Shown: piece after piece, positions 228-29,992 of the stretch
Layout of the letters: each line of letters opens with the position of its first letter
How positions within the stretch are numbered: the stretch's first letter is position 1
Assembly: GCA_017962275.1 (NCBI GenBank)
Contig: JAGCVQ010000072.1
Span: 1-34,738 of the forward strand
Direction of reading: 5' to 3'
Length of the DNA stretch: 34,738 bases
Origin: Bacteroidales bacterium
GTDB lineage: Bacteria > Bacteroidota > Bacteroidia > Bacteroidales > WCHB1-69
Program-made: the position numbers and the translations under genes
The notes under the pieces: generated by a model
The model's database searches: none
What the model saw: the letters and a program-made list of their open reading frames with translations, nothing else
What the model was told of the DNA's origin: nothing

Positions 228-299
228 AGCCATTAGCTTTTGGCCTTTGGCTCTTAGCTTTTAGCCAATACCAATAGCCAACAGCCAATAGCTAATAGC
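228..299. repeat. Heptanucleotide tandem array, bipartite and inverted
   Basis: The right half repeats a 7-bp unit close to TAGCCAA (TAGCCAA, CAGCCAA, TAGCTAA, TAGC). The left half carries similar units in the opposite orientation (TTAGCTT, TTGGC), so the whole could fold back on itself. It lies between the ilvE terminator and the rpsU promoter. Confidence 0.7.
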
Positions 300-329
300 A
301 AAAAAGGATGCCCGAAGACATCCTTTTTT
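300..329. terminator. Rho-independent terminator after ilvE
   Basis: The stem GGATG/CATCC, extended by six A-T pairs, surrounds an 8-nt loop. A-run and T-run flanks make it usable from either side. It lies 20 nt beyond the ilvE stop codon on the minus strand. Confidence 0.85.
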
Positions 330-348
330 GTGGGTTTGAGACGATCGG

Positions 349-1371
349 TTAGCAATCCACGATGGTGCACCAGCCGTATTTGTCCTCGATTTCGCCGTAT
401 TGGATACCCATGAGCATCTCGCGCATCTTGATGGACCAGGGACCGGGTTTGCCGTCTTTGGAGATGACATATTCCTTACCGGTCTCTCTGTCCTGAATCT
501 TGTGGATGGGGGAGATGACAGCGGCGGTACCGCAAGCACCCGCTTCATCGAAGGTGTCGATTTCGTCAAGTCTGACGTGGCGTCTTTCGACCACGAGACC
601 GAGTTCCTCAGCGATGGTGCGGAGGCTCATATTGGTGATAGAAGGCAGGATGGAGCCGGAATCCGGGGTCACATACTTGCCGTCCTTGATGCCGAAGAAG
701 TTGGCGGGACCAGCCTCGTCGATGTACGTTTTGGTCTTGGCATCGGCGAAGATAGAGGCGCTGAAGCCTTCCTTGTGGGCGCGTTCGCCGGCGCGGAGGG
801 AAGCGGCGTAGTTACCACCGACTTTCACGTGACCGGTACCCAGGGGAGCTGCACGGTCGTAATCCTTAGCAATCTGCATGTCGGTGGGTTTGAAACCTTC
901 CTTGAAGTAAGGTCCGACGGGCATCACGAAGACGATGAAGAGGTATTCGTCAGCGGGCTTCACACCGATGGTGGCGCCGGTGCCGATGAGCAGCGGGCGG
1001 ATGTAGAGGGAACCCTCGGTGCCGTAAGGCGGGATGTATTCGGCGTTGGCCTTGATCACCATCTCCAATGCGTCGAAGAACAGCTTTTCCGGGATGGGCT
1101 CCAGCATGATGGCGTCAGCGGAATTGTTGATACGTTTCCAGTTCTCTTCCCAACGGAACAAACGCACTTTGCCGTCTTTGCCGCGGAAGGCTTTCATGCC
1201 TTCGAAAGCTTCTTGGCCGTAATGCAAGCAGGAAGCTGCCATGTGCATCGGAATGTATTCGTCAGAAGACAATTCCAGTTTTCCCCATTCGCCGTTTCTG
1301 AAATAGCAGCGGACATTGTAGTCGGTTTTCATGTAACCGAAAGAGAGGTTTTTCCAATCGATATTTTTCAT
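349..1371 (-). CDS. ilvE: Branched-chain amino acid aminotransferase
   Basis: This 340-residue protein is a fold-type IV PLP aminotransferase that interconverts Leu, Ile and Val with their 2-oxo acids, using glutamate/2-oxoglutarate. The PLP lysine is K183 in GHVKVGGNYAASL, equivalent to the AKAGGNY lysine of E. coli IlvE. The PLP-binding glutamate is in DEAGPANFFGI around residue 219, and the GTAAVISPI stretch near 281 is the conserved phosphate-binding segment. The length and the GxxxxxxGWC-type C-terminus fit the longer BCAT group common in Bacteroidota. It follows apt by 26 nt on the same strand with no promoter box in between, so co-transcription is likely. The 412-residue open frame on the other strand is a shadow. 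Confidence 0.95.
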   Translation of the reverse strand: MKNIDWKNLSFGYMKTDYNVRCYFRNGEWGKLELSSDEYIPMHMAASCLHYGQEAFEGMKAFRGKDGKVRLFRWEENWKRINNSADAIMLEPIPEKLFFDALEMVIKANAEYIPPYGTEGSLYIRPLLIGTGATIGVKPADEYLFIVFVMPVGPYFKEGFKPTDMQIAKDYDRAAPLGTGHVKVGGNYAASLRAGERAHKEGFSASIFADAKTKTYIDEAGPANFFGIKDGKYVTPDSGSILPSITNMSLRTIAEELGLVVERRHVRLDEIDTFDEAGACGTAAVISPIHKIQDRETGKEYVISKDGKPGPWSIKMREMLMGIQYGEIEDKYGWCTIVDC

Positions 1372-1397
1372 AAAAAAATGTATTTGATTAGTTGTAT

Positions 1398-1910
1398 TTA
1401 TACGAATAATAAGCTGTCAACGGAATATTGGCTCAGTTTTTTGCGGCCTTCGAGGGCTTCCAGTTCCATCAGGAAGAGCAGATGGATGCTTTCGGGGTGG
1501 AAATGGTTGACGAGCTTGACGGCTGCGGACATGGAGCCGCCGGTAGCCAGAACATCGTCCACGATGAGCACGCGCTTGCCCTCCGGCATGGCGTCGGAGT
1601 GGATTTCCATCGTGGCGGTGCCATACTCCAGAGAGTAGGTCTCTTGGTAGGTTTTGTAAGGGAGTTTGCCTTTTTTGCGCACAGGCACAAACGGCACGCC
1701 TAATTGCAGCGCGAGGCAGGTGCCGAAAAAGAATCCGCGAGATTCGAGGGCGACCACCACGTCGGGATTGTGCTTCTTGGCAATCAGCATCATTTGGTCG
1801 ATCGTTTCGCGGAAAGCGGCTGCATCGTTGAGCAATGTGGTAATGTCATAGAACTGAATTCCCGGTGTCGGAAAGTCAGGAACCACACGTATTTTCTCCT
1901 TGATAATCAT
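1398..1910 (-). CDS. apt: Adenine phosphoribosyltransferase
   Basis: The 170-residue product salvages adenine with PRPP to give AMP. The PRPP-binding loop VLIVDDVLATGGS is at residues 114-126 and the N-terminal PDFPTPGIQFYDIT stretch is typical of Apt. An in-frame upstream ATG at 1940 would add ten residues (MCTFFLDRKV). I chose the ATG at 1910 because the upstream one lies inside the promoter box and because family members begin at about this point. Its own TAnnTTTG box is 27 nt upstream. It is the first gene of a probable apt-ilvE unit. Confidence 0.95.
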   Translation of the reverse strand: MIIKEKIRVVPDFPTPGIQFYDITTLLNDAAAFRETIDQMMLIAKKHNPDVVVALESRGFFFGTCLALQLGVPFVPVRKKGKLPYKTYQETYSLEYGTATMEIHSDAMPEGKRVLIVDDVLATGGSMSAAVKLVNHFHPESIHLLFLMELEALEGRKKLSQYSVDSLLFV

Positions 1911-1937
1911 CACTTTTCGGTCCAAAAAAAATGTGCA

Positions 1938-1945
1938 CAAAAGTA
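1938..1945 (-). promoter_or_regulatory. -7 promoter box of apt-ilvE
   Basis: The reverse strand reads TACTTTTG, an exact TAnnTTTG match, 27 nt before the chosen apt start. It covers the alternative upstream ATG, which argues against that start. Confidence 0.7.
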
Positions 1946-1961
1946 CACTTTTTTTTAAAAC

Positions 1962-1993
1962 AAAAAAGGTGTTCCGAAAAGAACACCTTTTTT
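1962..1993. terminator. Rho-independent terminator after the 2013-2393 gene
   Basis: The stem GGTGTTC/GAACACC surrounds a 6-nt loop, with six A on the left and six T on the right. On the minus strand it ends the lipoprotein gene 2013-2393, 20 nt past its stop codon, and insulates apt. Confidence 0.9.
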
Positions 1994-2012
1994 GTTTGAG
2001 ATAATAGAAATA

Positions 2013-2393
2013 TTATCTTTTCTTCTTGCCACTGTTCACGATTGCGTTGGTGGTTTCCTTCTCGGCTTTGTCGATAGCCGTGTTGGCAACATTGGTGGCA
2101 GCATTCTCGGCGTGTTTCTTCACGGTCGAGTTTTCGTCCACCTTTTGAATGCCAGCTTGCTCGGCTTTGGAAGGAGTGTTGTTCTTCTTGGTGGTCGTGG
2201 TGGTCTTCTTGGCGGGAGTCGTTTGAGCGACGGGCTCTTCAGCGACGGGTTCCTCAACCACTTCTTCAGCGACTTCCTCGACAACTTCCTCAACGGGAAC
2301 GGTGTCCATCAAAGCTTCGGGTTCTTGGGCTTTCTTGTTGCCACAGGCGAAGAAAAGGCCTGCGCAAAGCACTGCTAAAAATACTTTCTTCAT
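2013..2393 (-). CDS. Small Glu/Thr/Lys-rich lipoprotein of unknown function
   Basis: The protein has 126 residues. A type II signal peptide with a lipobox-like FFAC places the acylated cysteine at residue 17. Residues 30-60 are built from imperfect repeats of VEEVVEEVAEE and VAEEPVAQ. A Thr/Lys stretch (TTPAKKTTTTTKKNN) and a charged helical tail ending KKKR follow. The composition suggests an extended, disordered periplasmic lipoprotein rather than an enzyme. It starts 45 nt after the next lipoprotein gene, with no promoter box in the gap, so the two are probably co-transcribed. I do not recognise a family. Confidence 0.7.
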   Translation of the reverse strand: MKKVFLAVLCAGLFFACGNKKAQEPEALMDTVPVEEVVEEVAEEVVEEPVAEEPVAQTTPAKKTTTTTKKNNTPSKAEQAGIQKVDENSTVKKHAENAATNVANTAIDKAEKETTNAIVNSGKKKR

Positions 2394-2438
2394 TTTATTA
2401 AAAATTTTAAGTGATTAATTTCGGATGATTTGATTGAA

Positions 2439-2981
2439 TTACTTGGCGGGAACGTAGGTCAGCATCCACTCGTAAGTGCCCTTGGCGCCGGGAGCATCGT
2501 CGTTCATCGTGTATTTGACTTGCAGAATGTTGTCGTCGAGGGTCACGATTTGGCAAGCGTCCAAATCAACGCCACCTTCATTGTTGAAGACGAACGGGAT
2601 GTACATGTAAAGGAGATCATAGGTTCTGTCGCCAATGGTGACACCTTCCTCAACGCGCCAGTTGCCGAGAGAAGTCTCAGCGGCGAAGCCTTGTTCACCT
2701 TCGGGGCAAACGTGTTTACCGGGTTTCACAATCTGACCGCCGTTCTCATTGAAGACGATGACATAGTCTCTTTCCCACTCGTAGAGGTAATTGTTGTAAA
2801 TGTCGGTGACGAAAGAACCGTCGGACATTTCATAGTCGGGAGAAGAGGTTGCGGCTTGCAGAACCCAACCTTTGGTTTGTTGAGTCAGATACTCAGCATA
2901 GGTTTTCTCTTTGGGTTGGCAGCTTGTGAAAGCCATCAGAACCACGGCTACAACAGCCAGTACGCTTAATACTTTTTTCAT
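2439..2981 (-). CDS. Lipocalin-like lipoprotein, function unknown
   Basis: The protein has 180 residues. A lipoprotein signal peptide ends with the lipobox FTSC, placing the acylated cysteine at residue 21. The mature part is rich in alternating beta-strand patterns. A GWVLQAATSS segment near residue 38 resembles the G-x-W start of lipocalin-like domains, as does the final strand YEWMLTYVPAK. Bacteroidota carry many such short beta-barrel lipoproteins of unknown ligand. The promoter box is 70 nt upstream and the next gene downstream is another small lipoprotein. The lipocalin assignment is by pattern only and is tentative; the lipoprotein call is firm. Confidence 0.75.
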   Translation of the reverse strand: MKKVLSVLAVVAVVLMAFTSCQPKEKTYAEYLTQQTKGWVLQAATSSPDYEMSDGSFVTDIYNNYLYEWERDYVIVFNENGGQIVKPGKHVCPEGEQGFAAETSLGNWRVEEGVTIGDRTYDLLYMYIPFVFNNEGGVDLDACQIVTLDDNILQVKYTMNDDAPGAKGTYEWMLTYVPAK

Positions 2982-3051
2982 TTTTTTGATTTTTTTGGGG
3001 TTAATAAATTATTGTTTTTATAAACTATTCTACACCTTATATTCCAAGGTG

Positions 3052-3059
3052 CAAAAATA
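3052..3059 (-). promoter_or_regulatory. -7 promoter box of the lipoprotein pair
   Basis: The reverse strand reads TATTTTTG (exact TAnnTTTG) followed by CACC, 70 nt before the ATG at 2981. Confidence 0.65.
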
Positions 3060-3099
3060 TACTTTTTTCGAATGGTGGTGTCTTAAAAATTCTTAAAAA

Positions 3100-8120
<5,021 letters not shown>

Positions 8121-9353: not shown

Positions 9354-9387
9354 TCAATAACCTATAACCCATAACCTATAACCATTA
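9354..9387. repeat. Heptanucleotide array, unit close to TATAACC
   Basis: Units AATAACC, TATAACC, CATAACC, TATAACC follow each other at a strict 7-bp period between the two divergent promoters. Confidence 0.75.
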
Positions 9388-9405: not shown

Positions 9406-10236
9406 GTGAAAAAAGCGACCCCCTCAACCGACCCTATCGTGCTGCACGGCAACTGTTTGTTCGTGTCGGACGCGCATTTCCGTACCCCGCCGGACGCTGC
9501 CAGCGAGGAGCGCGAACTGCGGTTGGTGCGGCTGCTGAAGGATCAAGGTGCCGACCTTCGACATCTGTTCCTGTTGGGCGACATCTTCGACTACTGGTTT
9601 GAGTATCGCGATGTGGTGCCGAAAGGGTATGTCACCCTTTTCGCCTGTCTGAAGGAATTGAACGCGCAAGGTGTTCAGATCCACTACTTTACGGGTAATC
9701 ACGATATGTGGGTGGAGGATTATTTCACCCAGACTTTCGGGGCGATAATCTACCGGGAGGCACGGCTGATGGAGATCAACGGGCACCGCTGTTTTGTCGG
9801 TCACGGCGACGGGTTAGGCGGGAAACAGCGTAAATACATGATGATCAAGCGCATACTGAACAGCCGGTTTAATTGGCGGCTGTACAGCATGTTGCATCCG
9901 CGGCAGTCGTTCGCCATTGCCCGGTACTGTTCACAGTCCAGCCGCGAATCCCACGACGAGAGCGTGTTTGTCTTCAAAGAGGAGGAAGAGCACCAGGTAC
10001 AATTTGCCCGTGAGCTGTTGCAGACCACGGACGTCGAACTTTTCATTCTCGCGCATCGACACATCCCCACGCGCTACGAGCTCTCACCCGGCCATCTGTT
10101 TTTCAACACCGGCGACTGGTTGGAGAACTTCAGCTACATCACCTTCGATCCGAAAGACCAAGAACCTGTACTACATAACGATTCATCATCAGATTATAAA
10201 CATTCACCTTATCTCGAAGAGATAACATCTCGGTAA
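9406..10236 (+). CDS. lpxH: UDP-2,3-diacylglucosamine diphosphatase family protein
   Basis: This 276-residue metallophosphoesterase most likely cleaves UDP-2,3-diacylglucosamine to lipid X in lipid A synthesis, at the cytoplasmic face of the inner membrane. The two-metal site motifs are all present: SDAHF (21-25), GDIFD (58-62), GNHD (97-100), GHGDG (132-136) and AHRH (216-219). The start is a GTG giving MKKATPSTDP. No in-frame ATG occurs before SDAHF, so the GTG is well supported. A promoter box ends 4 nt before it, suggesting a leaderless message. Era follows after 48 nt that contain a hairpin element. The stop codon lies at the edge of that element. LpxH-like paralogues of other function exist, so the precise substrate is inferred. 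Confidence 0.88.
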   Translation: MKKATPSTDPIVLHGNCLFVSDAHFRTPPDAASEERELRLVRLLKDQGADLRHLFLLGDIFDYWFEYRDVVPKGYVTLFACLKELNAQGVQIHYFTGNHDMWVEDYFTQTFGAIIYREARLMEINGHRCFVGHGDGLGGKQRKYMMIKRILNSRFNWRLYSMLHPRQSFAIARYCSQSSRESHDESVFVFKEEEEHQVQFARELLQTTDVELFILAHRHIPTRYELSPGHLFFNTGDWLENFSYITFDPKDQEPVLHNDSSSDYKHSPYLEEITSR

Positions 10237-11938: not shown

Positions 11939-11946
11939 TATATTTG
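11939..11946 (+). promoter_or_regulatory. -7 promoter box of pta
   Basis: TATATTTG followed by CCGA, with a TTTG at 11913-11916 that may be the -33 box. The leader to the pta ATG is about 80 nt and contains a heptamer array. Confidence 0.7.
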
Positions 11947-11956: not shown

Positions 11957-12015
11957 GAAACCAGAAACCAGAAACCAAAAACTGTAAACGGTAAACAGTA
12001 AACAGTAAACTAATA
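11957..12015. repeat. Heptanucleotide array in the pta leader
   Basis: Three GAAACCA units are followed by units close to TAAACAG (TAAACGG, TAAACAG, TAAACAG, TAAAC), all in a 7-bp register. The array fills most of the space between the promoter box and the pta start codon, so it would be transcribed. Confidence 0.8.
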
Positions 12016-12027: not shown

Positions 12028-13035
12028 ATGAACATCATCGAGAAAATCAAAGAGAACGCCAAGAAGGCCAACAAACGCATCGTTTTGGCAGAGGGCGAAG
12101 AGGAAAGAAACTTGAAGGCTGCCGACATCATCATTGAGAACGGTTACGCCGCCATCACCCTTTTGGGCAACAAGGCCAACATCGAGGCCAAGGCTGCCGA
12201 GTGGGGACTCAAGAACATCGCGAAGGCCGACATTATCGACCCGCTGAACAACCCCAAAAAGGATTTCTACGCCAACATGCTGTATGAAATCCGCAAGAGC
12301 AAGGGCATGACGATGGAGGAAGCCCTCAAGAAAGTGGAGGATCCGCTTTACTTAGCCACCCTGCTCATCAAGAACAAGGATGTGGACGGTGAAGTGACTG
12401 GCGCACAGCACGCTACGGGCGATGTGCTCCGTCCCGCTTTCCAGATTGTGAAGACTCTGCCCGGTATTTCCGTGGTCTCTGGTGCCTTCATCATGTGCTT
12501 CCAGGACAAGAAGTGGGGTGACGACGGCGTGATGGTTTTCGCTGACTGCGCGGCCGATCCGAACACCGATGAGAACAAGCTCGCGCAGATTGCCGTTGTG
12601 ACGGCCCAGACCGCCCGCACCATCGCCGGCATCGAGCCGCGTGTGGCTATGCTGAGCTTCTCCACCAAGGGTTCCGCTAAGCACGAACTGGTTGACAAAG
12701 TGGTGAATGCCACCCGCATCGCCAAGGAGATGGATCCCAACCTCGTGATTGACGGTGAGTTGCAGGCCGATGCCGCCATCATCCCGTCCGTGGGTGCTCA
12801 GAAGGCTCCCGGCAGCCCCGTTGCTGGTAAGGCTAACGTGCTGGTATTCCCGTCGTTGGAGACCGGTAACATCGCTTACAAGTTGGTGCAGCGTTTCGCC
12901 GGTGCGGATGCCGTTGGCCCCGTCATGCAGGGCATGGCTGCTCCTATCAACGACCTCTCTCGCGGTTGCTCCGTCGAGGACATCGTCAGCCTCGTGGCCA
13001 TCACCGCCTGTCAGGCCGCTGGTAACACGTTCTAA
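12028..13035 (+). CDS. pta: Phosphate acetyltransferase
   Basis: The 335-residue enzyme exchanges acetyl-CoA and acetyl phosphate in the acetate/ATP pathway. This is the short form, containing only the catalytic PTA_PTB domain. Typical segments are KRIVLAEGEEERNLKAADII near the N-terminus, VTGAQHATGDVLRPAFQIV (about 122-140), SFSTKGSAKHELVDKVV (about 210-227) and GPVMQGMAAPINDLSRGC near the C-terminus. Acetate kinase is often next to pta but is not here. The promoter is about 80 nt upstream and the leader holds a heptamer array. After the stop codon there is a large palindrome cluster that may end transcription. Confidence 0.96.
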   Translation: MNIIEKIKENAKKANKRIVLAEGEEERNLKAADIIIENGYAAITLLGNKANIEAKAAEWGLKNIAKADIIDPLNNPKKDFYANMLYEIRKSKGMTMEEALKKVEDPLYLATLLIKNKDVDGEVTGAQHATGDVLRPAFQIVKTLPGISVVSGAFIMCFQDKKWGDDGVMVFADCAADPNTDENKLAQIAVVTAQTARTIAGIEPRVAMLSFSTKGSAKHELVDKVVNATRIAKEMDPNLVIDGELQADAAIIPSVGAQKAPGSPVAGKANVLVFPSLETGNIAYKLVQRFAGADAVGPVMQGMAAPINDLSRGCSVEDIVSLVAITACQAAGNTF

Positions 13036-13050
13036 TGATTTAATCTTCCT

Positions 13051-13107
13051 GTAGAGACGCAATGTAGAGACGCAAAATTTTGCGTCTCTACAATTTCGCG
13101 TCTCTAC
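13051..13107. repeat. GTAGAGACGC palindrome cluster, copy 1
   Basis: A perfect 28-bp palindrome (13064-13091), with arms beginning GTAGAGACGCAAAA, is nested between a further GTAGAGACGC on the left (13051-13060) and GCGTCTCTAC on the right (13098-13107). An identical 28-bp core recurs at 14390-14417. It lies between pta and the permease gene and may also work as a terminator. Confidence 0.9.
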
Positions 13108-13120
13108 ATTTATTATATAT

Positions 13121-14350
13121 ATGTCACAATTTTCGTTCCACTGGCAATTGGCCCATCGCATTCTCCGCGACAAGGGCGACCGGTTTTCCAAACCCATTAT
13201 TCGGCTTTCGGTGTTCGGGGTATCGCTTGGCATGGTCATCATGCTGATTGCCATTGGGATTACGTCCGGCTACAAGCAGGTGATTGAGGACAAAGTGGTG
13301 GCGATGGGACAGCATGTCCGTATTTCCCACTACGACCGCAACTACTCCTACGAACAGACACCTATTACGTTGAATGACACACTTTTGCAGGTTATTCATG
13401 GGAATCCCGACGTGGTCGCGGTGCAGCCATACGCCACCAAAGTAGGCATCATTAAGACCGCGGATCAGGTGGAGGGCATCGTGCTGAAAGGGGTGGATGC
13501 CTCGTTTGACGGACGGCACTTTGCCCATAACATGGTGGAAGGCGACACGTTGCAGCTTGGCGATACGGTGGCGGATAACCATATCATCGTCTCCAAACGG
13601 TTGGCCGAGAAGCTGCAGCTGAAGGTGGGCGACAAGGTGCGCACCTATTTCGTGCAGGATCCGCCGAGACAGCGAAGTTTCACGTTGTCAGGGATTTACG
13701 AAACGGGATTGCCCGAATACGACACCAAGTTTGCGCTCGTGGATTTGCGCCATGTGCAGAAGCTCAACGACTGGGACTCCTCGCAGGTGAGCGGCATCGA
13801 GGTGCTGGCCAGCGATTATAACAAGATGGATGAGGTCGGCGAACAGCTTCACCATCAGATAGATATAAACTTGAAAGCCGAAACCGTGAAACAGATTTAT
13901 CCCGAAATTTTCGACTGGATTGCCCTGTTCGATACCAACGTCTCCGTGCTGTTGATCATCACAACCTGCGTCTGCATGATCACCATGATGTCGGTGTTTT
14001 TCATCATCGTGTTGGGACAGACAAGGCTCATCGGGATTCTTAAAACCTTGGGAATGAAGACAAAACATGTGGTTCAGACCTTCCTTATCGTGGCGGGTCG
14101 CACGTTGCTGAGAGGCTTGCTGATCGGAAACCTTATCGGGCTCGGATTCGGTTGGCTACAGCAACGTTTTCATTTCATCAAACTGAACCCCGATACCTAT
14201 TATGTCAATTTCGTGCCGATTAAGTTCCAGTTTTGGGAGGTCGTGCTACTGAATCTCGGCGTTTTCGCGGCCTGCATGCTGGTGCTCGTCGTGCCCGCAT
14301 GGGTTATCGCGAAGAAGATTTCCCCAGTAAAGGCGGTGCAATTCGAATAA
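13121..14350 (+). CDS. LolC/LolE-type ABC transporter permease
   Basis: The 409-residue inner-membrane protein has the FtsX/LolCE layout: one N-terminal membrane segment (about 27-50, IRLSVFGVSLGMVIMLIAIG), a large periplasmic domain (about 55-270) and three C-terminal segments (about 275-300, 320-345 and 375-400). The closest well-known relatives release lipoproteins from the inner membrane for transport to the outer membrane. No LolD-like ATPase is adjacent, so its partner must lie elsewhere. I cannot separate LolC/E from other MacB-like permeases by eye. The gene starts 13 nt after the palindrome cluster; no clear TAnnTTTG box is seen. Confidence 0.85.
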   Translation: MSQFSFHWQLAHRILRDKGDRFSKPIIRLSVFGVSLGMVIMLIAIGITSGYKQVIEDKVVAMGQHVRISHYDRNYSYEQTPITLNDTLLQVIHGNPDVVAVQPYATKVGIIKTADQVEGIVLKGVDASFDGRHFAHNMVEGDTLQLGDTVADNHIIVSKRLAEKLQLKVGDKVRTYFVQDPPRQRSFTLSGIYETGLPEYDTKFALVDLRHVQKLNDWDSSQVSGIEVLASDYNKMDEVGEQLHHQIDINLKAETVKQIYPEIFDWIALFDTNVSVLLIITTCVCMITMMSVFFIIVLGQTRLIGILKTLGMKTKHVVQTFLIVAGRTLLRGLLIGNLIGLGFGWLQQRFHFIKLNPDTYYVNFVPIKFQFWEVVLLNLGVFAACMLVLVVPAWVIAKKISPVKAVQFE

Positions 14351-14353: not shown

Positions 14354-14389
14354 AGGCAAAAGGCAAGAGGCAAAAGGCAATAGATAAAA
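14354..14389. repeat. Heptanucleotide array, unit AGGCAAA
   Basis: Units AGGCAAA, AGGCAAG, AGGCAAA, AGGCAAT, AGATAAA follow in strict 7-bp register, starting 3 nt after the permease stop codon and running into the second 28-bp palindrome. Confidence 0.85.
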
Positions 14390-14417
14390 GTAGAGACGCA
14401 AAATTTTGCGTCTCTAC
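14390..14417. repeat. GTAGAGACGC palindrome, copy 2
   Basis: This 28-bp perfect palindrome is identical to 13064-13091. It lies between the convergent permease (plus) and gldG (minus) genes, where a hairpin would serve both as terminator. Confidence 0.9.
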
Positions 14418-14437
14418 AAATAAATATTACGTTTCTG

Positions 14438-17987: not shown

Positions 17988-18758
17988 CTATTCGTATTTG
18001 ATGAAGATTTTGTCTCCCGGTTCCAGGTCGGCCAAGATGGACACATCCGACTGATAACCCGTGATTTCAATAAGGCCTAAGGCGTTGTGGCAGAGATACA
18101 TCTCGTCGTCTAACGGCTTGTAGGAATCGGCATGGGCGGTGATGGTCCACATGCCTTTCGACTGAATGGTGGCGGTAAAATCCCTATTCCCGACCGCCTT
18201 CTCGAACATGGCCACGGGGATGTCGGTGATGGCGTTGTAGAAAGCATCGATATAGATGATGGTCCCTTCAATCTGTTGGTTTTCAGCAGAATGCTCGGCA
18301 GTTTCGGTGAACATCCGTTTGAAGTTCAGGTACTCATTGGTGTTCCCCGACAGTTGGTCATCGGCAATCAATCGGATCAGCTGAAGGATTTGGCTGAGAC
18401 TGTTTCCCTGAGTCTTAGCGAGTTGGTATCCTTTGAGGGCAGCTTCCTGACCGAACATCAGGAAGAAGATTCCGTTGTCTTCCCCGATGAACCAGTGCCC
18501 GTTGTGTTGAAGCACTACCGGCGCGAAGGTGGAGTTCAGCGACATGTTGGTCAGCAGCAGGTGAATGCTGCCTTCCGGGAACGACGTGTAGCTGGTTTTC
18601 ATCAGCAGGGCCGTTTGCGGCAGGTTGAACTTATCGACATAGTGGGTGATGTCGAGGATTTGCGCGTCGGGTTGCGCCTTCCATAGCTCGCCTTTGAGCA
18701 TGGCAACGTACGGGTCGCGCAAACGCCAGTCGCTGAGGAGGGTAATGATTTGGTTCAT
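17988..18758 (-). CDS. SAM hydrolase/SAM hydroxide adenosyltransferase family (DUF62)
   Basis: The 256-residue protein resembles the DUF62 family, which splits S-adenosylmethionine to adenosine and methionine using water. Family landmarks, some divergent: TLLSDWRLRDPYVAMLKG at 7-24 (family LTDFG..DPYVG..KG), DITHYV (about 35-41), FIGEDNGIF (about 90-98; family GPDNG) and IYIDAFYNAITDI (about 168-180; family IDRFGN.ITN). The usual Phe-Gly after LTD is replaced by Trp-Arg, so activity is likely but not certain. The nitrilase gene follows at 1-nt spacing. A heptamer array begins 5 nt upstream of the ATG; I see no standard promoter box. Confidence 0.85.
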   Translation of the reverse strand: MNQIITLLSDWRLRDPYVAMLKGELWKAQPDAQILDITHYVDKFNLPQTALLMKTSYTSFPEGSIHLLLTNMSLNSTFAPVVLQHNGHWFIGEDNGIFFLMFGQEAALKGYQLAKTQGNSLSQILQLIRLIADDQLSGNTNEYLNFKRMFTETAEHSAENQQIEGTIIYIDAFYNAITDIPVAMFEKAVGNRDFTATIQSKGMWTITAHADSYKPLDDEMYLCHNALGLIEITGYQSDVSILADLEPGDKIFIKYE

Positions 18759-18763: not shown

Positions 18764-18825
18764 TAATTGATAATGGATAATTGATAATGGATAATTGATA
18801 ATTGATAATTGATAATGGATAATTG
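18764..18825. repeat. Heptanucleotide array, units TAATTGA/TAATGGA
   Basis: Nine consecutive 7-bp units alternate between TAATTGA and TAATGGA. The array lies directly upstream of the SAM hydrolase start codon. Confidence 0.92.
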
Positions 18826-18857: not shown

Positions 18858-18987
18858 TCCTAAATCCTAATTCCTAATATCTAACATCTTACTTCTTACT
18901 TCTTACGTCTTACATCTTACTTCTTACGTCTTACATCTTACTTCTTACGTCTTACATCTTACATCTCACGTCCCACGTCTCACGTCA
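18858..18987. repeat. Heptanucleotide array with 21-bp higher-order repeat, ending in the anmK stop
   Basis: Units such as ACTTCTT, ACGTCTT, ACATCTT and ACGTCTC follow in strict 7-bp register. In the middle, the trio ACTTCTT-ACGTCTT-ACATCTT is repeated three times without change. The right end includes the TGA stop codon of anmK. The units resemble those at 3100-3237 on the complementary strand. Confidence 0.92.
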
Positions 18988-20055
18988 AAGATAGAGGCCG
19001 CCGCCGCAGGAGTCTTTGCGGGCGCCGGTGACGCTGCGCAGACAGTTGTTCTCGCCGTTCAGTCGTAGCAGTCCCAAAAATGCGAAAATCAGGGCCTCTT
19101 TGTAATCGACAATCAACTTGTCGGGAACGACAACTTTCAATGTATCTCTTTGATTCTGAATTTGTTGTATCAAGAAAGAATGATGGGCGCCGCCGCCGGT
19201 GACCAACATTGTCCGTGCGTTTTCCGGCACATTATCTACAATCTGCGTGGCGATGTGCTCCACAACCGTTCGTGACAAATCGGCGACGCTGTTGTCGGAT
19301 GAGAACGAGGATAAAACGGGTGAAAAGACCTCGTCAAACCACTCTTTTCCTAACGATTTCGGCGGTTTCTGATGATAATAGGCCAAATTGTTAAGTCTTT
19401 GCAGCAATCCGGGAAGGATGCTGCCTGTTTTGACAAGTTCACCGTCTCTGTCGTATGGAAGTCCGACCCGATGGGCCAAAGTGTTCAACGCCATATTGCA
19501 GGGTGAAATATCGTAGGCAATCCGCTGACCGTCAGCGCGGTACGAGATGTTGGAGATGCCGCCGAGGTTCAGACAGGCATCGAATTCACTGAACAGCAGC
19601 TCGTCGCCGATGGGCACTAACGGCGCTCCCTGACCGCCCAACGCCACGTCCGTGGTACGGAAATCGCAAACCGTCGGGATTCCCGTGCGGGCGGCGATGA
19701 CAGCTCCGTTGCCGATCTGCGTGGTCAGCCCGATTTCCGGCTGGTGGAAGATGGTGTGCCCGTGCGAGGCTAAGAAGTCGGGACGCGCCCCGTCTCCTAA
19801 CCATCCGTTGACGGCATTCGCGATAGCTTCGGCCACATCGTTGTTCAGCTTCGCATACTCCAATGCAGAGAAGTGAGGGGAGGTGGCGTTGCCAAGCCGA
19901 TCCTTGAGCGCTTCGTCGTAAGGTACCGTCACCGCCTTGTCGATACGGTAGTCCCACTTCCCATCTTCGTTTTTGGAAAAGTGACACCACGCCAGATCAA
20001 TCCCGTCCAAGGAGGTGCCGGACATCACGCCTATGCCGTCAAACTCGTTTTTCAT
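18985..20055 (-). CDS. anmK: Anhydro-N-acetylmuramic acid kinase
   Basis: The 356-residue kinase recycles cell-wall 1,6-anhydro-MurNAc to MurNAc-6-phosphate. The signature GVMSGTSLDGIDLA lies at residues 8-21, followed by family segments SHGHTIFHQP (about 94-103), LNLGGISNISY (about 166-176) and the nucleotide-binding VTGGGAHH (about 291-298). The length fits the family. The ATG at 20055 overlaps the murF stop as ATGA, indicating translational coupling with peptidoglycan synthesis. The stop codon lies in a heptamer array. Confidence 0.96.
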   Translation of the reverse strand: MKNEFDGIGVMSGTSLDGIDLAWCHFSKNEDGKWDYRIDKAVTVPYDEALKDRLGNATSPHFSALEYAKLNNDVAEAIANAVNGWLGDGARPDFLASHGHTIFHQPEIGLTTQIGNGAVIAARTGIPTVCDFRTTDVALGGQGAPLVPIGDELLFSEFDACLNLGGISNISYRADGQRIAYDISPCNMALNTLAHRVGLPYDRDGELVKTGSILPGLLQRLNNLAYYHQKPPKSLGKEWFDEVFSPVLSSFSSDNSVADLSRTVVEHIATQIVDNVPENARTMLVTGGGAHHSFLIQQIQNQRDTLKVVVPDKLIVDYKEALIFAFLGLLRLNGENNCLRSVTGARKDSCGGGLYL

Positions 20056-21305: not shown

Positions 21306-21346
21306 AGCGGTTCTTTAGCTTTTGATACTGCGGCTATCGCCTTGTG

Positions 21347-21388
21347 TCCGCCCCACACTGCGCTCCTTTCGTCGCTTATGTGGGGTTA
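21347..21388. repeat. Hairpin element A, copy 2
   Basis: CCCCACA (21351-21357) pairs with TGTGGGG (21379-21385). Compared with the copy at 10234-10268 the stem reads CCCCAYA/TRTGGGG, so the C-G pair here is T-A there. The loop shares CTTTCG and GCTT. Confidence 0.65.
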
Positions 21389-21389
21389 T

Positions 21390-21436
21390 TAAGCTCTACC
21401 GAGCCCTTGTCCCTTCGGGACTGCTTAAGGAAGCTG
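21390..21436. repeat. Hairpin element B, copy 1
   Basis: The segment begins AGCTCTACC and ends CTGCTTAAGGAA, with the stem GTCCC/GGGAC (21409-21413 and 21417-21421). A second copy in the other orientation is at 29931-29976. Confidence 0.75.
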
Positions 21437-21496: not shown

Positions 21497-21530
21497 TAAC
21501 TACTAACTGCTAACTTCTAACTTCTAACTG
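21497..21530. repeat. Heptanucleotide array carrying the HAD stop codon
   Basis: Units TAACTAC, TAACTGC, TAACTTC, TAACTTC, TAACTG follow at 7 bp. On the minus strand the array encodes the last residues (TVRS) and the TAG stop of the HAD phosphatase. Confidence 0.9.
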
Positions 21531-22398
21531 TTCCAAGTTCCCGGTACTTGATGTTCAGCAGGTCCTGCTCCATCGAGATTTTGTCGATGACCTTCTTGAG
21601 GATGATGTCGAGCTCGCTGTTCTCGGTGTAGTCGGCGGGACCGATGTAGTCGGCGCGTTTCTGCCGGATGAGGTTGATGCATCTCTCCTTCGCGCTCACG
21701 GGGCGCTCGGGGGTGGCCACGGAGTTGGGGTTATAGACGGCGATGGTGGTGCCGCCGTAGAGGTTGACCATCTTCATCGCCGGCACGTCGGTCTCCCCGT
21801 CGCCGATGTAGATGAAATTGGAGAAGGGCACGGCGCGTTCGTCTTCCGGCATCGACTTGTTAATCAGGGTGTTGTCATACGAGTTGTAAATTCCCTTGTT
21901 GATGCGGAACAGGAACTGCGTCTTGTTGGTGTAGTTCACGCCGAGGGCAGGCCAGCAGGCGATGCCGTTGTCATCATATTGAAAACCAGAGGCATAAACG
22001 GTCTTGAAATGTTTGGCGATGCGCGTTCCTCTCACGATTTCGCGCAGCCCCGACGAGATGATGAAGTGCTCCAAGTGGAGGTTTTGCGAGGCGGCGTAGG
22101 CGTTGATACGGTCGAAATAGGTCTCCACCCCTTCGAAAAAGGTGATTTTCTCCCCGTATTTCACAAACGTGCCTTCCCGGATGTCGAGGTTCTGCTCCTT
22201 GGCCTTGATCAGCATCAGGTGCATATAGGCGAGCACTTCGTCCATGTCGTGCCGTTTGGCCATTTCGTTGGCCGCCTGCCAGAACTCCCCCTTGTCCATG
22301 TTGAGATCGGGGATGAAGTTGTACTCCTGCATGTTGCCAGGTGCCAAAGTCCCGTCGAAGTCGTAAGCGATGGCCACGTTTCTGTTTTCTGTAATCAT
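21517..22398 (-). CDS. HAD-superfamily phosphatase
   Basis: The 293-residue cytoplasmic protein has the HAD motifs: motif I DFDGTL (13-18, nucleophile D13), motif II in FIISSGLRE (about 113-121), a lysine in the region after NYTNKTQF, and motif IV IGDGETDVPAMK (about 194-205). A large cap lies between motifs I and II. The substrate is not evident; the cap and the SSG motif are like those of the phosphoserine phosphatase-like branch. The last four residues and the TAG stop are formed by a heptamer array, which suggests that the original C-terminus has been replaced or altered. The promoter box is 48 nt upstream. Confidence 0.85.
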   Translation of the reverse strand: MITENRNVAIAYDFDGTLAPGNMQEYNFIPDLNMDKGEFWQAANEMAKRHDMDEVLAYMHLMLIKAKEQNLDIREGTFVKYGEKITFFEGVETYFDRINAYAASQNLHLEHFIISSGLREIVRGTRIAKHFKTVYASGFQYDDNGIACWPALGVNYTNKTQFLFRINKGIYNSYDNTLINKSMPEDERAVPFSNFIYIGDGETDVPAMKMVNLYGGTTIAVYNPNSVATPERPVSAKERCINLIRQKRADYIGPADYTENSELDIILKKVIDKISMEQDLLNIKYRELGTVRS

Positions 22399-23065: not shown

Positions 23066-23073
23066 CAAAAGTA
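23066..23073 (-). promoter_or_regulatory. -7 promoter box of the small lipoprotein gene
   Basis: The reverse strand reads TACTTTTG followed by CCCC, 98 nt before the ATG at 22967. It diverges from the box at 23130. Confidence 0.65.
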
Positions 23074-23129
23074 CAAAAAATAGCGGATAATCACAAGTGT
23101 GCAACCGCTCACTGTTCACTAAAAAAAAG

Positions 23130-23137
23130 TATTTTTG
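23130..23137 (+). promoter_or_regulatory. -7 promoter box of the FAD dehydrogenase gene
   Basis: TATTTTTG followed by CCGC, 15 nt before the ATG at 23153. It overlaps a possible upstream TTG start (23135), which therefore is not used. Confidence 0.75.
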
Positions 23138-23152
23138 CCGCAAATTAGGACT

Positions 23153-24712: not shown

Positions 24713-24714
24713 AA

Positions 24715-24743
24715 AACGGGCGAACCTTCATGATTCGCCCGTT
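24715..24743. terminator. Bidirectional terminator between convergent genes
   Basis: AACGGGCGAA pairs with TTCGCCCGTT over a 9-nt loop. On the minus strand it is followed by a T-run, serving the gene at 24771. It starts 2 nt after the stop codon of the FAD gene. Confidence 0.9.
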
Positions 24744-24770
24744 GTCATATATACAATATTGTATCCTGTT

Positions 24771-26597: not shown

Positions 26598-26636
26598 AGG
26601 TTATTAGGTTTTATATTTGATTATTCAAAAACGGTG

Positions 26637-26644
26637 CAAAGATA
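26637..26644 (-). promoter_or_regulatory. -7 promoter box of the OmpA/TPR lipoprotein gene
   Basis: The reverse strand reads TATCTTTG followed by CACC, 39 nt before the ATG at 26597. Confidence 0.7.
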
Positions 26645-26656
26645 CGTTTTTTTTGG

Positions 26657-29600
26657 TTAGAAATCTGTGCCTAACGAGAACATGAACATGCCTTTTTTGT
26701 TCTCAATGTGGAAATCTTCGACGCCCCAGGCGTAATCGAAGCGCAGGAAGTAACCGAGGACGGAGATGCGCGCCCCGATGCCGATGCCGCCAACCCACGG
26801 ATCCACTTGCCGTTTGACCTCCGCATGGATGGGACCGCTGTCGATGTAGCGGGTGTAGAGACAGTTGTCTTCGGAATAGGGCGTGAAACCGGTCCAGGCT
26901 GTTCCGACATCGCCGAACAGATTGAGCTGTAGGGAATTGAGGAGGTTCCAAGCCACTTTATGACCGGCAATCAGCTGTACGATGGGCACCCGCAGCTCGC
27001 CGTTGAAGACAAAGAAGGAGGTGCCGTTGCGGATGTTCTGCCGGAAACCCCGCATGTTGGTGGCCAGCGTCTGGTAGGCGTAATTCTTGGTCTGATCCAC
27101 CGAGATGTCGCTGTTGAACTTCGCGCCCATCCAGTTATCCACGCCGCCCATGTAATAGACTAACCGGGCCGAACCGGCGTTGGTGCTGCCGGCCAACCGC
27201 AGCGCGAGGGTCATGTTGCGGTAGAGCTTGAAGGAACGGCGGGCATCGAAACCCACGACAAGCAGGTTGAGGGATTCGCGTTCCAGACGATGCTCGTATT
27301 CGGCGAACAGTTTCAGCTTGGTGCCGCGCCAGAGGTTGGTGTACAGCTCTTTGGAAGTATCGAGAATGTATTCTAACTTTGCGCCCGCCCATACGTGATG
27401 CGCGTCGGCCGCCTTCAGGGTCTGGTCGTTCAGCGCGGTAACGATGTTGTTTTCATAACGGCCCGTCAGCGTCAGCCGCACGCAGTTGGTCTTGTTGAAC
27501 GGCAGCTTCAGCGTGTAGAAGAGGCTGTTGGAGTTCTGCCGATAGACGTAGCCGCCCACATCGGAGGTGATGGATTGCCGGTAAAGCGTGATTTGCCGGT
27601 CTAACCGCCGCGCCAAGTTCTCGTAGCTGAACATGAACTCGTAACTGTTCAGGTTCCAGCCGATTCGGAAGCCGCCGGTGATGCGGTAATCCTCAAACAG
27701 GTCGTTGATGCCCAACATGAACAGCGCGTTGAAGCCGGTGTTGAGGTAGATGGGCGAACTGCCGCCCTCGAACTGCTGGTAAGAGGTGTTCAGGAAGCTG
27801 AAGTCAGCCTGAGTAATCACTTGGTCGATAGAGTACTGTACCCGATAGGGCAGACCGACGGGGATCTGGAAATCACGCCCCGTTTTGGCAGATGTGTAGG
27901 AGGTGTCCCCGTCGAAAGAATCCGTCTCCTTGACCGGTTGCTCCGAAGGCAGTCCGAAGCCGTGTTTCTGTTGTCCGGTCGTGGCCGCGACACTGTCTTT
28001 AGCCGCTTGTTTTTCCGATTGTAGAATACTTTCTTGCCGAATGTACTGATGAAATTTGGAGGGGGTGATTTCCGGATGGTACAGCGAGTGGAATTCGGTG
28101 AACCAGATGTGTTTGCCCTTGTCTTTCAGCGAGATGTCGGCTAAGGTGTTGGTGGCGGGGTTATAGGCCTGCTCCACGATATTGTAAGCCCGGTCGGTAA
28201 GCGGCTGGGTGGTCGCGAAGTACATGTAATGCACCGCAGTATCGATACGACTGATGCTGCTGTCGAAAACGGCCTCGTAACGATTGACCACGCCGTCCTC
28301 GTCGCTTAGGAACAGGATGCGCTGGTTGTCAGCGACTTGTATGTCAAATTCATCGGAGTAGGGGGAATCGGTTATGCGCAGCAGGGCGGTGTCTTTGGTT
28401 TTGTAGTTATAGACAAAGAGATTGTATTTCCGTTGTTTAGAAGCGTCCATCATATTGTCTTTCAATAAGATGGAATCCACCGGACGGTTGGAGGCGAACA
28501 CCACCTGCTGCGGGTTCATGAAGACGGGGTTGTAGTCGTCGTAGAAATCGTTGGTGAGGTTCTGGAACGAGCGGGCCATGAAGCTGTAGAGGAACAGGTC
28601 GGACTGCCCGTTCTTGAATCCGGAGAAGAGCATCATCTGTCCGTCGGGGGAGTACTGCCAGGATGTGATTTTCTCCACATCCACTAACAGTTTCTTGCCC
28701 CAGCGTCGCTTCTCCAAGTCGTAGGGCATGAAGAGGCAGTCGCCTTTGGATTCGAGGGTGAGGCCGAGGATTTCGCCGGAGGGGTGCCACGCGATGAGCG
28801 GGTAGGAGAGGTCGGGATTGTCCTCCGTTTTGGCGTATTTCTTGAGGATACACCTCGGGTTTTTCCAGTCGGGGGTCTTCAGCCACACGCGCACCTGTCC
28901 GGCCTCGTTGGTGACGTAGGCGTATTTGTCGCCGTCGGGGGCGAAGCAGAAACGGGCGTAGTCGCGCTTGGGGTCGGGCTTGCGGAGAATCTCCTCCCCG
29001 GCGGGCATCTGTTTGCTCATGTCGGGGTGGAACATCACCACATAATATTTGTACCATTGCGTGGCCAGCGCCTTGAAGGGGGTCATGGTGGCGCGTGCCA
29101 TGCCGTTTTCGAGGCTCTTGCCGGAGCGTGTGTAGTAGAGCGTTTTCGAGATGACATCCTCGCCATAGACATCAACGAGATACTTCCAGAAGGAGTGGCC
29201 GGCGTAGGTGGCGTCCACGGGGGAGAGCTCTTCGAGACGTTTGTAACTGCCTGTGAGAATGCCGTTTTTGACGTGCGTTTCGATGTCGCTGCTCCAGTGC
29301 TCCCCGAAATAGGAGGCCAACCCGCTGTAATACCAAGCCGGCACGTTCATGAGGTAGTCGTAGGAGATATTGGACCCGACAGTCGCGCCTTGCACCACCC
29401 AGTGGGCATAGACGTTCATGATGCCGGCGCGGATCATCTTGTCAAGATGCGCCCGGTTGCCGTCGAAGTAGATGTAAATCTTGGTGCCGTAAATGTTGGT
29501 TACGCCGCCTTGGTTGTAGAAATCCTCGTAGTCGTAGGCGAAGTTCGATTCGCGGAAGTCGGCCTGCGTGTTATAGACGATGATCTGCAGTTTCTTTTTG

Positions 29601-29851
29601 GAGGTATAGTTCAGCAGTTTCTCGATCTCCGCAACGATTTCGGGGGTCTTATAGAAGACGTATTGCGCCAGCGCTCGGCCGGTGGGGTAGTAGTAAACAT
29701 CGTATTGTTCCGCCCGCAGGTATTGCCAGTTGAAGTTTTGGTGCTGCACGCGGCTTTTCCCGAAGGTGAGCTGCGAACCGTTGTAGAACTGCGCGTGGGA
29801 CGTCAGGAACAGGCACAACAACACCCCGATTGTCACGATTCGTCGCGACAA
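26657..29851 (-). CDS. Outer-membrane protein: dead peptidase MA-like domain, PD40 propeller and Omp85-like barrel
   Basis: The protein has about 1064 residues from a TTG at 29851, which gives the signal peptide MSRRIVTIGVLLCLFLTSHAQ. No ATG exists at this end; a TTG at 29887 would add 12 residues read from a repeat array. Residues about 30-230 resemble a peptidase-MA (gluzincin) domain, but the HExxH motif is VYAHW (147-151) and the downstream Glu is lost (WYYSGLASYF, 173-182), so it should not be catalytic. Residues about 290-560 show repeated PD40/TolB-like propeller motifs (FAPDGDKYAYVT, WQYSPDGQMMLFSG). From about 650 a beta-rich part contains NMRGFRQNIRNG, resembling the Omp85 VRGY motif, and ends with LRFDYAWG and a terminal Phe. 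The function is unknown; a role in secretion or assembly is a guess. Confidence 0.8.
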   Translation of the reverse strand: MSRRIVTIGVLLCLFLTSHAQFYNGSQLTFGKSRVQHQNFNWQYLRAEQYDVYYYPTGRALAQYVFYKTPEIVAEIEKLLNYTSKKKLQIIVYNTQADFRESNFAYDYEDFYNQGGVTNIYGTKIYIYFDGNRAHLDKMIRAGIMNVYAHWVVQGATVGSNISYDYLMNVPAWYYSGLASYFGEHWSSDIETHVKNGILTGSYKRLEELSPVDATYAGHSFWKYLVDVYGEDVISKTLYYTRSGKSLENGMARATMTPFKALATQWYKYYVVMFHPDMSKQMPAGEEILRKPDPKRDYARFCFAPDGDKYAYVTNEAGQVRVWLKTPDWKNPRCILKKYAKTEDNPDLSYPLIAWHPSGEILGLTLESKGDCLFMPYDLEKRRWGKKLLVDVEKITSWQYSPDGQMMLFSGFKNGQSDLFLYSFMARSFQNLTNDFYDDYNPVFMNPQQVVFASNRPVDSILLKDNMMDASKQRKYNLFVYNYKTKDTALLRITDSPYSDEFDIQVADNQRILFLSDEDGVVNRYEAVFDSSISRIDTAVHYMYFATTQPLTDRAYNIVEQAYNPATNTLADISLKDKGKHIWFTEFHSLYHPEITPSKFHQYIRQESILQSEKQAAKDSVAATTGQQKHGFGLPSEQPVKETDSFDGDTSYTSAKTGRDFQIPVGLPYRVQYSIDQVITQADFSFLNTSYQQFEGGSSPIYLNTGFNALFMLGINDLFEDYRITGGFRIGWNLNSYEFMFSYENLARRLDRQITLYRQSITSDVGGYVYRQNSNSLFYTLKLPFNKTNCVRLTLTGRYENNIVTALNDQTLKAADAHHVWAGAKLEYILDTSKELYTNLWRGTKLKLFAEYEHRLERESLNLLVVGFDARRSFKLYRNMTLALRLAGSTNAGSARLVYYMGGVDNWMGAKFNSDISVDQTKNYAYQTLATNMRGFRQNIRNGTSFFVFNGELRVPIVQLIAGHKVAWNLLNSLQLNLFGDVGTAWTGFTPYSEDNCLYTRYIDSGPIHAEVKRQVDPWVGGIGIGARISVLGYFLRFDYAWGVEDFHIENKKGMFMFSLGTDF

Positions 29852-29874
29852 TGCGTGAATGCGGGGGTGTTTGG

Positions 29875-29992
29875 GTTCAAAGTTCAAGGTTCAAAGTTCA
29901 AAGTTCAAGGTTCAAAGTTCAAAAAACATATTCCTTAAGCAGCCCCATAGGGGCAAGAGCTTGGTAGAGCTGACAGGTTCATCAAGGTTCAA
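29875..29992. repeat. Heptanucleotide array GTTCAAA/GTTCAAG, interrupted
   Basis: From 29875 to 29931 seven units of GTTCAAA or GTTCAAG follow in strict 7-bp register. After hairpin element B, remnants of the same unit (GGTTCATCAAGGTTCAAC) appear at 29977-29992 and include the TGA stop of the phosphohexomutase gene. Confidence 0.9.
29931..29976. repeat. Hairpin element B, copy 2, inside the heptamer array
   Basis: On the minus strand it begins AGCTCTACCAAGC and ends CTGCTTAAGGAA, with the stem GCCCC/GGGGC. It shares most positions with the copy at 21390-21436, and the stem differs by a paired change (T-A there, C-G here). Confidence 0.8.

Follow-up and report, generated by a model that had tools for sequence, protein, structure and literature searches.

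The short tandemly repeated repetitive (STRR) sequences of cyanobacteria are heptamer tandem repeats built from several units. Here we describe tandem arrays with a 7-bp unit in the genome of a rumen Bacteroidales bacterium, starting from a stretch of 34,738 bp (contig JAGCVQ010000072.1 of assembly GCA_017962275.1; hereafter the window). The arrays draw on a small set of words that recur across loci and species, and near the 3' ends of genes they lie almost always in one orientation.

In 2007 heptamers were recognised as an over-represented class, or the most abundant one, of long simple repeats in many bacterial genomes (via PMC4679880 and PMC4692102), and the proposal of Mrazek et al. (2007), as told in the same two papers, was a length effect of the polymerase. 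Rehm et al. (2015) studied the heptamers GGGAATC of Xanthomonas and GGGGA(C/T)T of Nostoc; for these quadruplex-forming repeats, the parts of that paper drawn on here describe a polarity similar to the one reported below (PMC4692102). MacGregor (2015), in the parts used here, described heptamer arrays in five Bacteroidetes, with TAACTGA repeats also in Beggiatoaceae and cyanobacteria (PMC4679880). The original prediction, which was made from the window alone and knew of no heptamer description for Bacteroidota, was therefore mistaken on that point. According to the same account, the TAACTGA repeats of Maribeggiatoa and Flexibacter litoralis lie mostly in forward orientation just upstream of start codons, one F. 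litoralis set runs in reverse directly behind a stop, and a sample from Microcystis is of mixed orientation (6 forward, 8 reverse and 8 between stops; PMC4679880). Bacterial heptamer peaks have two standing explanations, which are polymerase slippage of a set length and a quadruplex-forming function.

Vocabulary and orientation of the heptamer arrays

The draft genome that holds the window (labelled G000) measures 2.77 Mb in 105 contigs and is 94% complete; the window is its contig 27. Together with 40 further stretches it gave a sample of 700,622 bases, or 25% of the genome, in which we found 119 period-7 arrays with a median length of 5 units. The histogram of periods 3 to 24 peaked sharply at 7, with 119 arrays; periods 8 and 6 had 21 and 3. 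The 23 arrays of period 14 and the 17 of period 21 are harmonics of 7, and every other period had 10 or fewer. By extrapolation, the whole genome would hold about 470 period-7 arrays. One local Markov-1 shuffle of the sample contained none, and a scan of 50 kb of Escherichia coli K-12 found none either. Genes were called by the longest-open-reading-frame (ORF) rule, with no gene finder; the resulting 3' ends are more reliable than the 5' ends, which are uncertain. Sixteen of the 119 arrays were inside longest-rule ORFs and 13 more were at contig or stretch edges. The arrays can be classed as heptanucleotide long simple-sequence repeats, being tandem, longer than chance and mostly noncoding. 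The sharp, genome-wide 7-bp peak in mostly intergenic DNA that had been predicted from the window was borne out in this quarter of the genome.

When single stretches of 17-20 kb from relatives were scanned, period-7 arrays turned up in 18 of the 30 that came from other genomes of the genus and in 2 of the 10 that came from other genera of the order. The relatives identified through phosphoglucomutase are mostly Bacteroidales from metagenomes, the nearest of them from ruminant rumen or gut where titles tell. Lineages contrast sharply: loci L042-L048 had no arrays, while L060-L067 had two to six each, with other words. Array copy number differs between species. G019, G026 and G000 are rich in arrays, while G014 and G033 had none in any of our counts. 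A genus that holds both array-rich and array-poor species offers a direct route, by genome comparison, to the responsible process.

The units had been thought to be specific to each locus, with the period conserved but not the sequence. This view is refuted by the vocabulary. The 119 arrays use 49 units, counted up to rotation and strand, whereas random intergenic heptamers gave a mean of 108.8 units and a minimum of 100 in 500 draws. Most units belong to a few words, and most recur at other loci. AGTTAGN (17 loci; the last base is T in 48% and C in 41%) and GATAATN (10 loci; T 56%, G 44%) have six nearly fixed bases and one two-state base. GTTCAAN (16 loci; A 50%, G 46%) and AGGCAAN (12 loci; A, T or G) have one strongly and one weakly variable base, and AAGAAT[G/T] (13 loci) and GACGT (18 loci) are looser words. 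Thus, most words of the vocabulary have one strongly variable base, which is often two-state. We defined the word families from these same data, and the unit matrices accepted units with up to two mismatches to a core of our choosing, which flatters the fixed columns. In a family-free test of 83 arrays, the most variable column held 66% of the mismatches, against 49% if mismatches were random.

Two of the words were counted in 60 whole genomes, our own included, as overlapping matches to a pattern and not as arrays. The pattern (AGTTAGN)3 had 204 matches in the window's genome and was found in 23 of the 60 genomes, all of the same genus; its backwards control had no match, and a scrambled core had 0 matches in the window's genome and was found in 3 of the 60. 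Thirteen of the 36 genomes of the genus had no (AGTTAGN)3 match. The pattern (GTTCAAN)3 had 193 matches in the window's genome and was found in 20 of the 60, one of which is outside the family (G046). Different species of the genus share both words and have the same main bases at the variable position. G046 lies outside the genus, in another family of the order, and has GTTCAAT-rich arrays of its own (38 matches to the pattern). These could be of independent origin or could result from transfer.

One explanation for such a peak is that the polymerase favours duplications of 7 nucleotides (nt) anywhere in the genome, with coding ones purged and with words taken from the local sequence. This is the view first formed from the window and, as MacGregor and Rehm recount it, what Mrazek et al. 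proposed in 2007. The sharpness of the peak agrees with a 7-nt ruler, and so does the abundance of heptamers in many other bacterial genomes, as far as the papers used here recount it (PMC4679880 and PMC4692102). However, the vocabulary is far below chance, and the same words with the same main variants occur in many species. Period 8 is also more restricted than a ruler would have it. All 21 period-8 arrays, among them those at L011 17673, L109 5288, L112 16524 and L117 14527, are built on TAACC/GGTTA (for instance TAACCGTGTAACCATG), so that a single type of word makes up the second peak. We regard the 7-nt ruler as an unlikely explanation of the arrays.

The ends of the arrays also speak against the ruler. 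Among 83 AGTTAG arrays of four species, the interior end reached 4 or 5 bases into the following core in 57, where uniform phases would give about 30%, and the opposite end began exactly at the first base of a core in 48, where about 23% would be expected. Of 19 AGGCAA arrays, 17 stopped 2 or 3 bases into the following core. Additionally, some flanks, or caps, recur on one side of the array at unrelated loci: GGTTAT followed by TGAAGC at 4 of 8 GGTT loci, AGTTA followed by a CGGGCGACCCC-like sequence at 3 of 15 AGTTAG loci, and GATAAT followed by a TGTGGGG-like sequence. End phases and flanks common to unrelated loci are not expected of arrays that grew independently from local sequence. These results suggest copying from shared seeds plus slippage.

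Fixed end phases and units with one two-state base also resemble templated addition, and a reverse transcriptase might write the arrays in a telomerase-like manner, with the variable base at the template junction. This seems very improbable to us because no RVT_1 domain (PF00078) was found in the window's genome, a 94% complete draft. None was found in the array-rich genomes G010, G012, G025 and G026 either, and the array-rich G009 and G019 have one RVT_1 match each.

Arrays are also anchored on gene ends. At 73 of the 506 gene 3' ends in our sample, an array starts between -25 and +40 of the stop codon. With about one in seven gene 3' ends of the sample affected, arrays that influenced termination, or the annotation of gene ends, would do so at many places. 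For the polarity counts we placed 90 of the 119 arrays; the 29 that lay inside ORFs or lacked a gene on both sides were dropped beforehand. Among arrays within -30 to +10 of a 3' end, the purine-rich strand was the sense strand in 41 of 42, and G exceeded C by 39 to 1. In the control, non-repeat DNA at 3' ends, purines were balanced (91 to 98) and the lean was towards C (112 to 81). The 3'-end arrays that do not overlap an ORF were purine-rich in 12 of 12 cases, with G above C in 9, C above G in 1 and 2 ties. Summed over the four gene arrangements, arrays in the left halves of intergenic regions were purine-rich by 31 to 9 and those in the right halves pyrimidine-rich by 38 to 12. When every array no more than 40 bp from a gene end was counted, the outward strand had more G than C by 59 to 12, with 4 ties.

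This polarity was followed in other genomes. In three other species, from which we took 61 AGTTAG arrays (20 loci per genome; 10 arrays lie more than 40 bases from a gene end), AGTTAG was on the sense strand in 43 of 47 arrays near 3' ends, and the array often supplied the gene's own TAG at -6, -13 or -20. Genus relatives were represented by 55 loci selected partly for visible arrays (L030-L041, L055-L067 and L129-L158, but not L029, L042-L054 or L068-L108). For their arrays no more than 10 bases from a 5' end, the outward strand had more G than C by 13 to 1. The titles of L030-L067 say only Bacteroidales or Bacteroidetes, and their membership of the genus is presumed.

Quadruplexes do not explain this rule in general. 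Quadruplex patterns with G3 tracts occurred in 2 of the 119 arrays and looser G2 patterns in 26, while all 36 of the 36 3'-end arrays with neither pattern were purine-rich on the sense strand. As arrays that cannot be called quadruplex-forming follow the rule, the polarity is wider than quadruplexes, which are ruled out as its general cause. Full-text searches of open-licence literature turned up no title or abstract that gives this rule for Bacteroidota or for non-quadruplex words.

Alternatively, the arrays may be functional elements of transcripts, which would provide three-frame stops and C-poor, Rho-resistant RNA after stop codons and G-poor, unstructured leaders before starts, with selection placing and orienting them. 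The 42 arrays at 3' ends carried stops in all three frames on the sense strand in 34 cases and on the antisense strand in 18. The stops supplied by AGTTAG arrays and the frequency of arrays at 3' ends are consistent with this idea as well. However, AGTTAG and its complement CTAACT both contain stops and yet are oriented 43 to 4, which rejects stop codons as the sole cause of orientation. In addition, 4 of the 42 arrays lack a sense stop, 433 of the 506 gene ends have no array, array positions are not significantly conserved between genomes (see below), and 13 of the 36 genomes of the genus do without (AGTTAGN)3. We therefore think that selection for such elements is improbable as the full account, although three-frame stops and G-poor leaders are the best leads to any function. 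A link to promoters was considered and rejected: among 30 5'-nearest arrays, a TANNTTTG box lay upstream in 3 and between the array and the start in 3.

Proposed origin of the arrays

We propose, at about even odds, that the arrays form a 'satellite library' of heptamer words that is shared by the genus and amplified to different degrees in each lineage, through the copying of seeds, slippage and a constraint on orientation. The small vocabulary, the words and variants common to several species, and the caps and end phases shared within several families favour a history in which several words have spread and descend from common ancestors, while slippage amplified them. From the window alone, a common mechanism that sets repeat length had seemed likelier than the spread of a sequence. 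The sharp 7-bp peak that went with this idea is there, but a sequence that is free, with only its length set, is not supported by the small vocabulary, the shared words and the caps and phases.

According to our model, the library of words would be handed down within the genus. A new array may begin as a short seed, some 12 bases of a word already in the library (such as AGTTAGNAGTTA), that is copied beside a gene end. The array could then grow and shrink in 7-bp steps by slippage or unequal exchange, and drift of its units may yield new words. We hypothesize that arrays persist mainly outside coding sequence, and in outward orientation, through a constraint on the transcribed strand, which would keep leaders poor in G and the RNA after stops poor in C. 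The orientation might be fixed by selection or by a process linked to transcription.

Signs of slippage are visible inside the arrays. In 9 of 28 long arrays, neighbouring units resembled each other more than they did once the unit order was shuffled, and a lag of three units (21 bp) was significant in 5 of the 28; one array of the window contains such 21-bp blocks at 18886-18962. The 7-nt ruler would account for these patterns too. Units also drift along an array, from GACGTGA to GATTTGA to an ACCTTGA-like unit, in both L012 and L119.

Orthologous places show how arrays differ between genomes. The leader of the phosphate acetyltransferase gene (pta) holds arrays in 7 of 11 genomes, our own included, whose Pta proteins are at least 96% identical, and these arrays use at least five words. 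At this one orthologous place, the leaders of L170, L171, L172 and L178 switch between 6-bp units (ACTATG, ACTTAG) and 7-bp units. For loci chosen for their AGTTAG arrays, the array was kept in the orthologous slot in 5 of 8, which is suggestive. The AGTTAG word is present in the orthologous slot of a HAD hydrolase gene in L030 and L231, with about two units in L033. In the slot upstream of the S-adenosyl-L-methionine (SAM) hydroxide adenosyltransferase gene, arrays are strong in the window's genome alone; two of the other loci (L205 and L209) have short ones.

Several observations weigh against a shared library or narrow its reach. We observed no copying event. The arrays of the pta leader have in common a local, GTTTGACT-like start, and 6-bp stretches occur in them, which looks like growth in place; this local seed favours the 7-nt ruler, as do the GTTCAA arrays, which have no single end phase. 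The end phases of AGTTAG arrays are weaker in G025 (11 of 21), several words have a second variable column, and the backwards control of (GTTCAAN)3, which is itself a heptamer pattern, had 3 matches in the window's genome and was present in 15 of the 60 genomes. Among unselected orthologous 3' ends, 5 of the 48 whose counterpart in the window's genome bears an array had one, as did 16 of the 231 whose counterpart bears none (p=0.38); counted per gene, slot conservation was 5 of 20 against 10 of 80 (p=0.17).

The polarity has its limits too. Where the nearest end was a 3' end but 10-40 bases off, 1 of 4 arrays was purine-rich, and beyond 40 bases 0 of 8 were. Many of these farther arrays are either the inverted second array or part of the 5' side of the following gene. 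The outward purine bias at 5' ends is a weak mirror image (8 to 6 within 10 bases, 13 to 2 at 10-40 bases and 2 to 5 beyond). AGTTAG pointed outward (CTAACT in the forward direction) at 3 of 4 5'-nearest AGTTAG arrays of the window's genome; in the three other species, AGTTAG arrays near 5' ends were split 2 to 2 and farther ones 1 to 4. Among the genus relatives, a subset chosen partly for arrays, the 3'-end bias was weaker (purines 27 to 12, G over C 29 to 10), and for their 3'-end arrays without a quadruplex pattern purine-rich sense strands prevailed by 23 to 12 and G over C by 25 to 10. Because related arrays are not independent, p-values come out too small and are only a guide; agreement across words and species carries the argument. 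Finally, the same word is inverted on both sides of some intergenic regions (window 3100-3240; L110 14566; L115 5579, 11198 and 14090), but hairpin-forming pairs are not a rule. Same-word inverted pairs were found in 22 of 75 regions, against 16.1 expected and a maximum of 26, which is not above chance.

Arrays and other repeats of the window

Tandem Repeats Finder and a lag scan confirmed 7-bp arrays at all nine positions predicted in the window. The strict 7-bp register ascribed to them is looser at the left edge, where 228-299 resolves into two adjoining imperfect arrays, a TTAGCTT-like one at 233-265 (76% matches) and an AGCCAAN one at 262-299 (84% matches, 6% indels), directly followed by a terminator-like hairpin at 300-329. 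The heptamers at 3100-3237 are real, but they form two arrays in opposite orientation: GACGTAA/GATGTAT at 3100-3160 (+) and GACGTRN at 3176-3240 (-), which overlaps the 3' end of a GH2/LacZ-like ORF (3220-7020, -) by 21 bases. The rightmost array, thought to span 29875-29992, keeps its register only as far as 29923. Its seven units, TTTGAAC/CTTGAAC (GTTCAA[A/G] on the other strand), are on the minus strand between the phosphoglucomutase ORF (29989-31338, -) and the next ORF (26657-29887), whose called TTG start the array overlaps by 13 bases; 29924-29992 has no 7-bp register and holds a decayed copy of a dispersed hairpin element.

The description of the arrays as intergenic holds for most of them, the exceptions being this overlap with a called start and three overlaps with the 3' ends of ORFs. 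The first of these is the array at 3176-3240. The second, at 18858-18986 (-), runs from GACGTGA to GATGTAA in 18 units with a 21-bp higher-order repeat and overlaps the 3' end of the AnmK ORF (18985-20055, -) by 2 bases. The third is an AGTTAGN array at 21497-21529 (-), which overlaps the HAD hydrolase ORF (21517-22398, -) by 13 bases and supplies its stop codon.

Three arrays of the window lie 5' of genes. An ATAACCN array at 9357-9383 (+), upstream of an ORF at 9406-10236 (+), has on its interior side the cap GCTTCA, which is common to other loci. The array at 11957-12010 (+) changes from GAAACCA to TAAACAG in the leader of the pta ORF (12028-13035, +); a -7-type box, TATATTTG, lies just before it at 11939-11946, and the array thus sits between the box and the start codon. 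ATTATC[A/C] (GATAAT[T/G] on the other strand) fills 18764-18823 (-), 5 bases upstream of the SAM hydroxide adenosyltransferase ORF (17988-18758, -). The remaining array, AGGCAA[A/G] at 14354-14380 (+), begins 3 bases past the stop of an ORF at 13121-14350 (+) and is followed by a GTAGAGACGC palindrome. Rfam, searched at gathering thresholds, matched nothing in the window but a tRNA. A plasmid search with the TAATTGA array gave no match, which low-complexity filtering may explain.

The same genome carries other repeats. A dispersed element of about 75-110 bp with three hairpins and the consensus TTCCTTRAGCAGTCCCGAAGGGACAAG..AACCCCACATAAGGCGAAGCCGCAGTGTGGGG had 26 matches in 700 kb, 23 of which look genuine. 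It often lies directly after a heptamer array. The window has copies at about 21340-21435 (-) and 29930-29965 (+), neither with an Rfam match at gathering thresholds, and others are in L010, L014, L018, L025, L027, L109, L110, L113, L114, L115, L117, L122, L123, L125, L127 and L128. Palindromes like those of repetitive extragenic palindromic (REP) elements (GTAGAGACGC..GCGTCTCTAC) are at 13050-13108 and 14390-14420 in the window and number 43 in 700 kb. Period-11 arrays have the recurring units AACTCCTGTGT and TGCTCCGACCC (L018 5460, L019 15486, L125 7334, L023 5850 and L118 9674), and the window has one at 32273-32409 (TATCGAAGAAC).

It is conceivable that the heptamer arrays are ends or decay products of such mobile elements, either the three-hairpin element or REP sequences moved by REP-associated tyrosine transposases (RAYTs), which occupy the same intergenic regions. 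AGTTAG, AGGCAA and AAGAAT arrays are often just upstream of the TTCCTTRAGCAGTCCCGAAGGGACAAG element. REP-like palindromes are frequent, and Y1_Tnp (RAYT-type) genes occur in 53 of the 60 genomes, G000 included. The three genomes of the genus without a Y1_Tnp match (G015, G033 and G034) also lack (AGTTAGN)3, which makes RAYT a weak lead only, as ten genomes of the genus that have Y1_Tnp lack the pattern too. In addition, the 70 bases before several copies of the element are free of arrays, different words precede the same element, and the heptamers are direct repeats and not the palindromes that define REP/RAYT units. An origin from mobile elements is thus a distant prospect compared with a heritable library of words.

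Comparison with known heptamer systems

Heptamer arrays as such were already known in bacteria; what appears new is the polarity in non-quadruplex words. Many words that coexist in one genome, that where counted are shared across species and that next to stops keep one polarity even when they cannot form quadruplexes argue against both standing explanations as full answers. The polarity is a simple test that can be applied to any bacterial genome.

It is tempting to regard the heptamer arrays of Bacteroidota, Xanthomonas, Nostoc and Beggiatoaceae as one class of bacterial satellite, for which an orientation-sensing process tied to transcription would write or copy a small set of 7-bp words at gene ends with the G-richer strand outward. 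Quadruplexes would not be the cause in such a class, because words incapable of forming them obey the same rule. We hold this wider unification to be doubtful, and the mixed orientation reported for Microcystis (PMC4679880) does not fit a universal polarity.

Eukaryotic satellite DNA has been explained by a 'library' model, in which related species have words in common that are amplified to different degrees. Our arrays differ from such satellites in their 7-bp units, their very short length and their position at bacterial gene ends.

The heptamers of Rehm et al. (2015), as far as the parts of that paper used here describe them, are closest in position. Like ours, they are fewest between divergent genes, where 11 of our 90 placed arrays lie on 22% of the intergenic length, and they have the G-rich strand outward. 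Conversely, they consist of one word per genome, picked for quadruplex potential, whereas our genome has many coexisting words anchored on stop codons, and four G3 tracts are rare in our arrays (2 of 119). Convergent inverted pairs were reported for Xanthomonas (PMC4692102); in our genome, same-word inverted pairs are not above chance.

The TAACTGA repeats, in the account of PMC4679880 used here, resemble our arrays in their period of 7 and their mostly intergenic position. TAACTGC and TAACTAC, which are one or two bases off TAACTGA, are common in our genome, although TAACTGA itself is not among the 49 sampled units. That system has one dominant word, with related heptamers rare as repeats in Maribeggiatoa, whereas ours has many words, many of them at 3' ends. 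Last, our results agree with Mrazek et al. (2007), as cited in the two later papers, that heptanucleotides are the dominant long period, and the vocabulary, caps and polarity go beyond that cited account.

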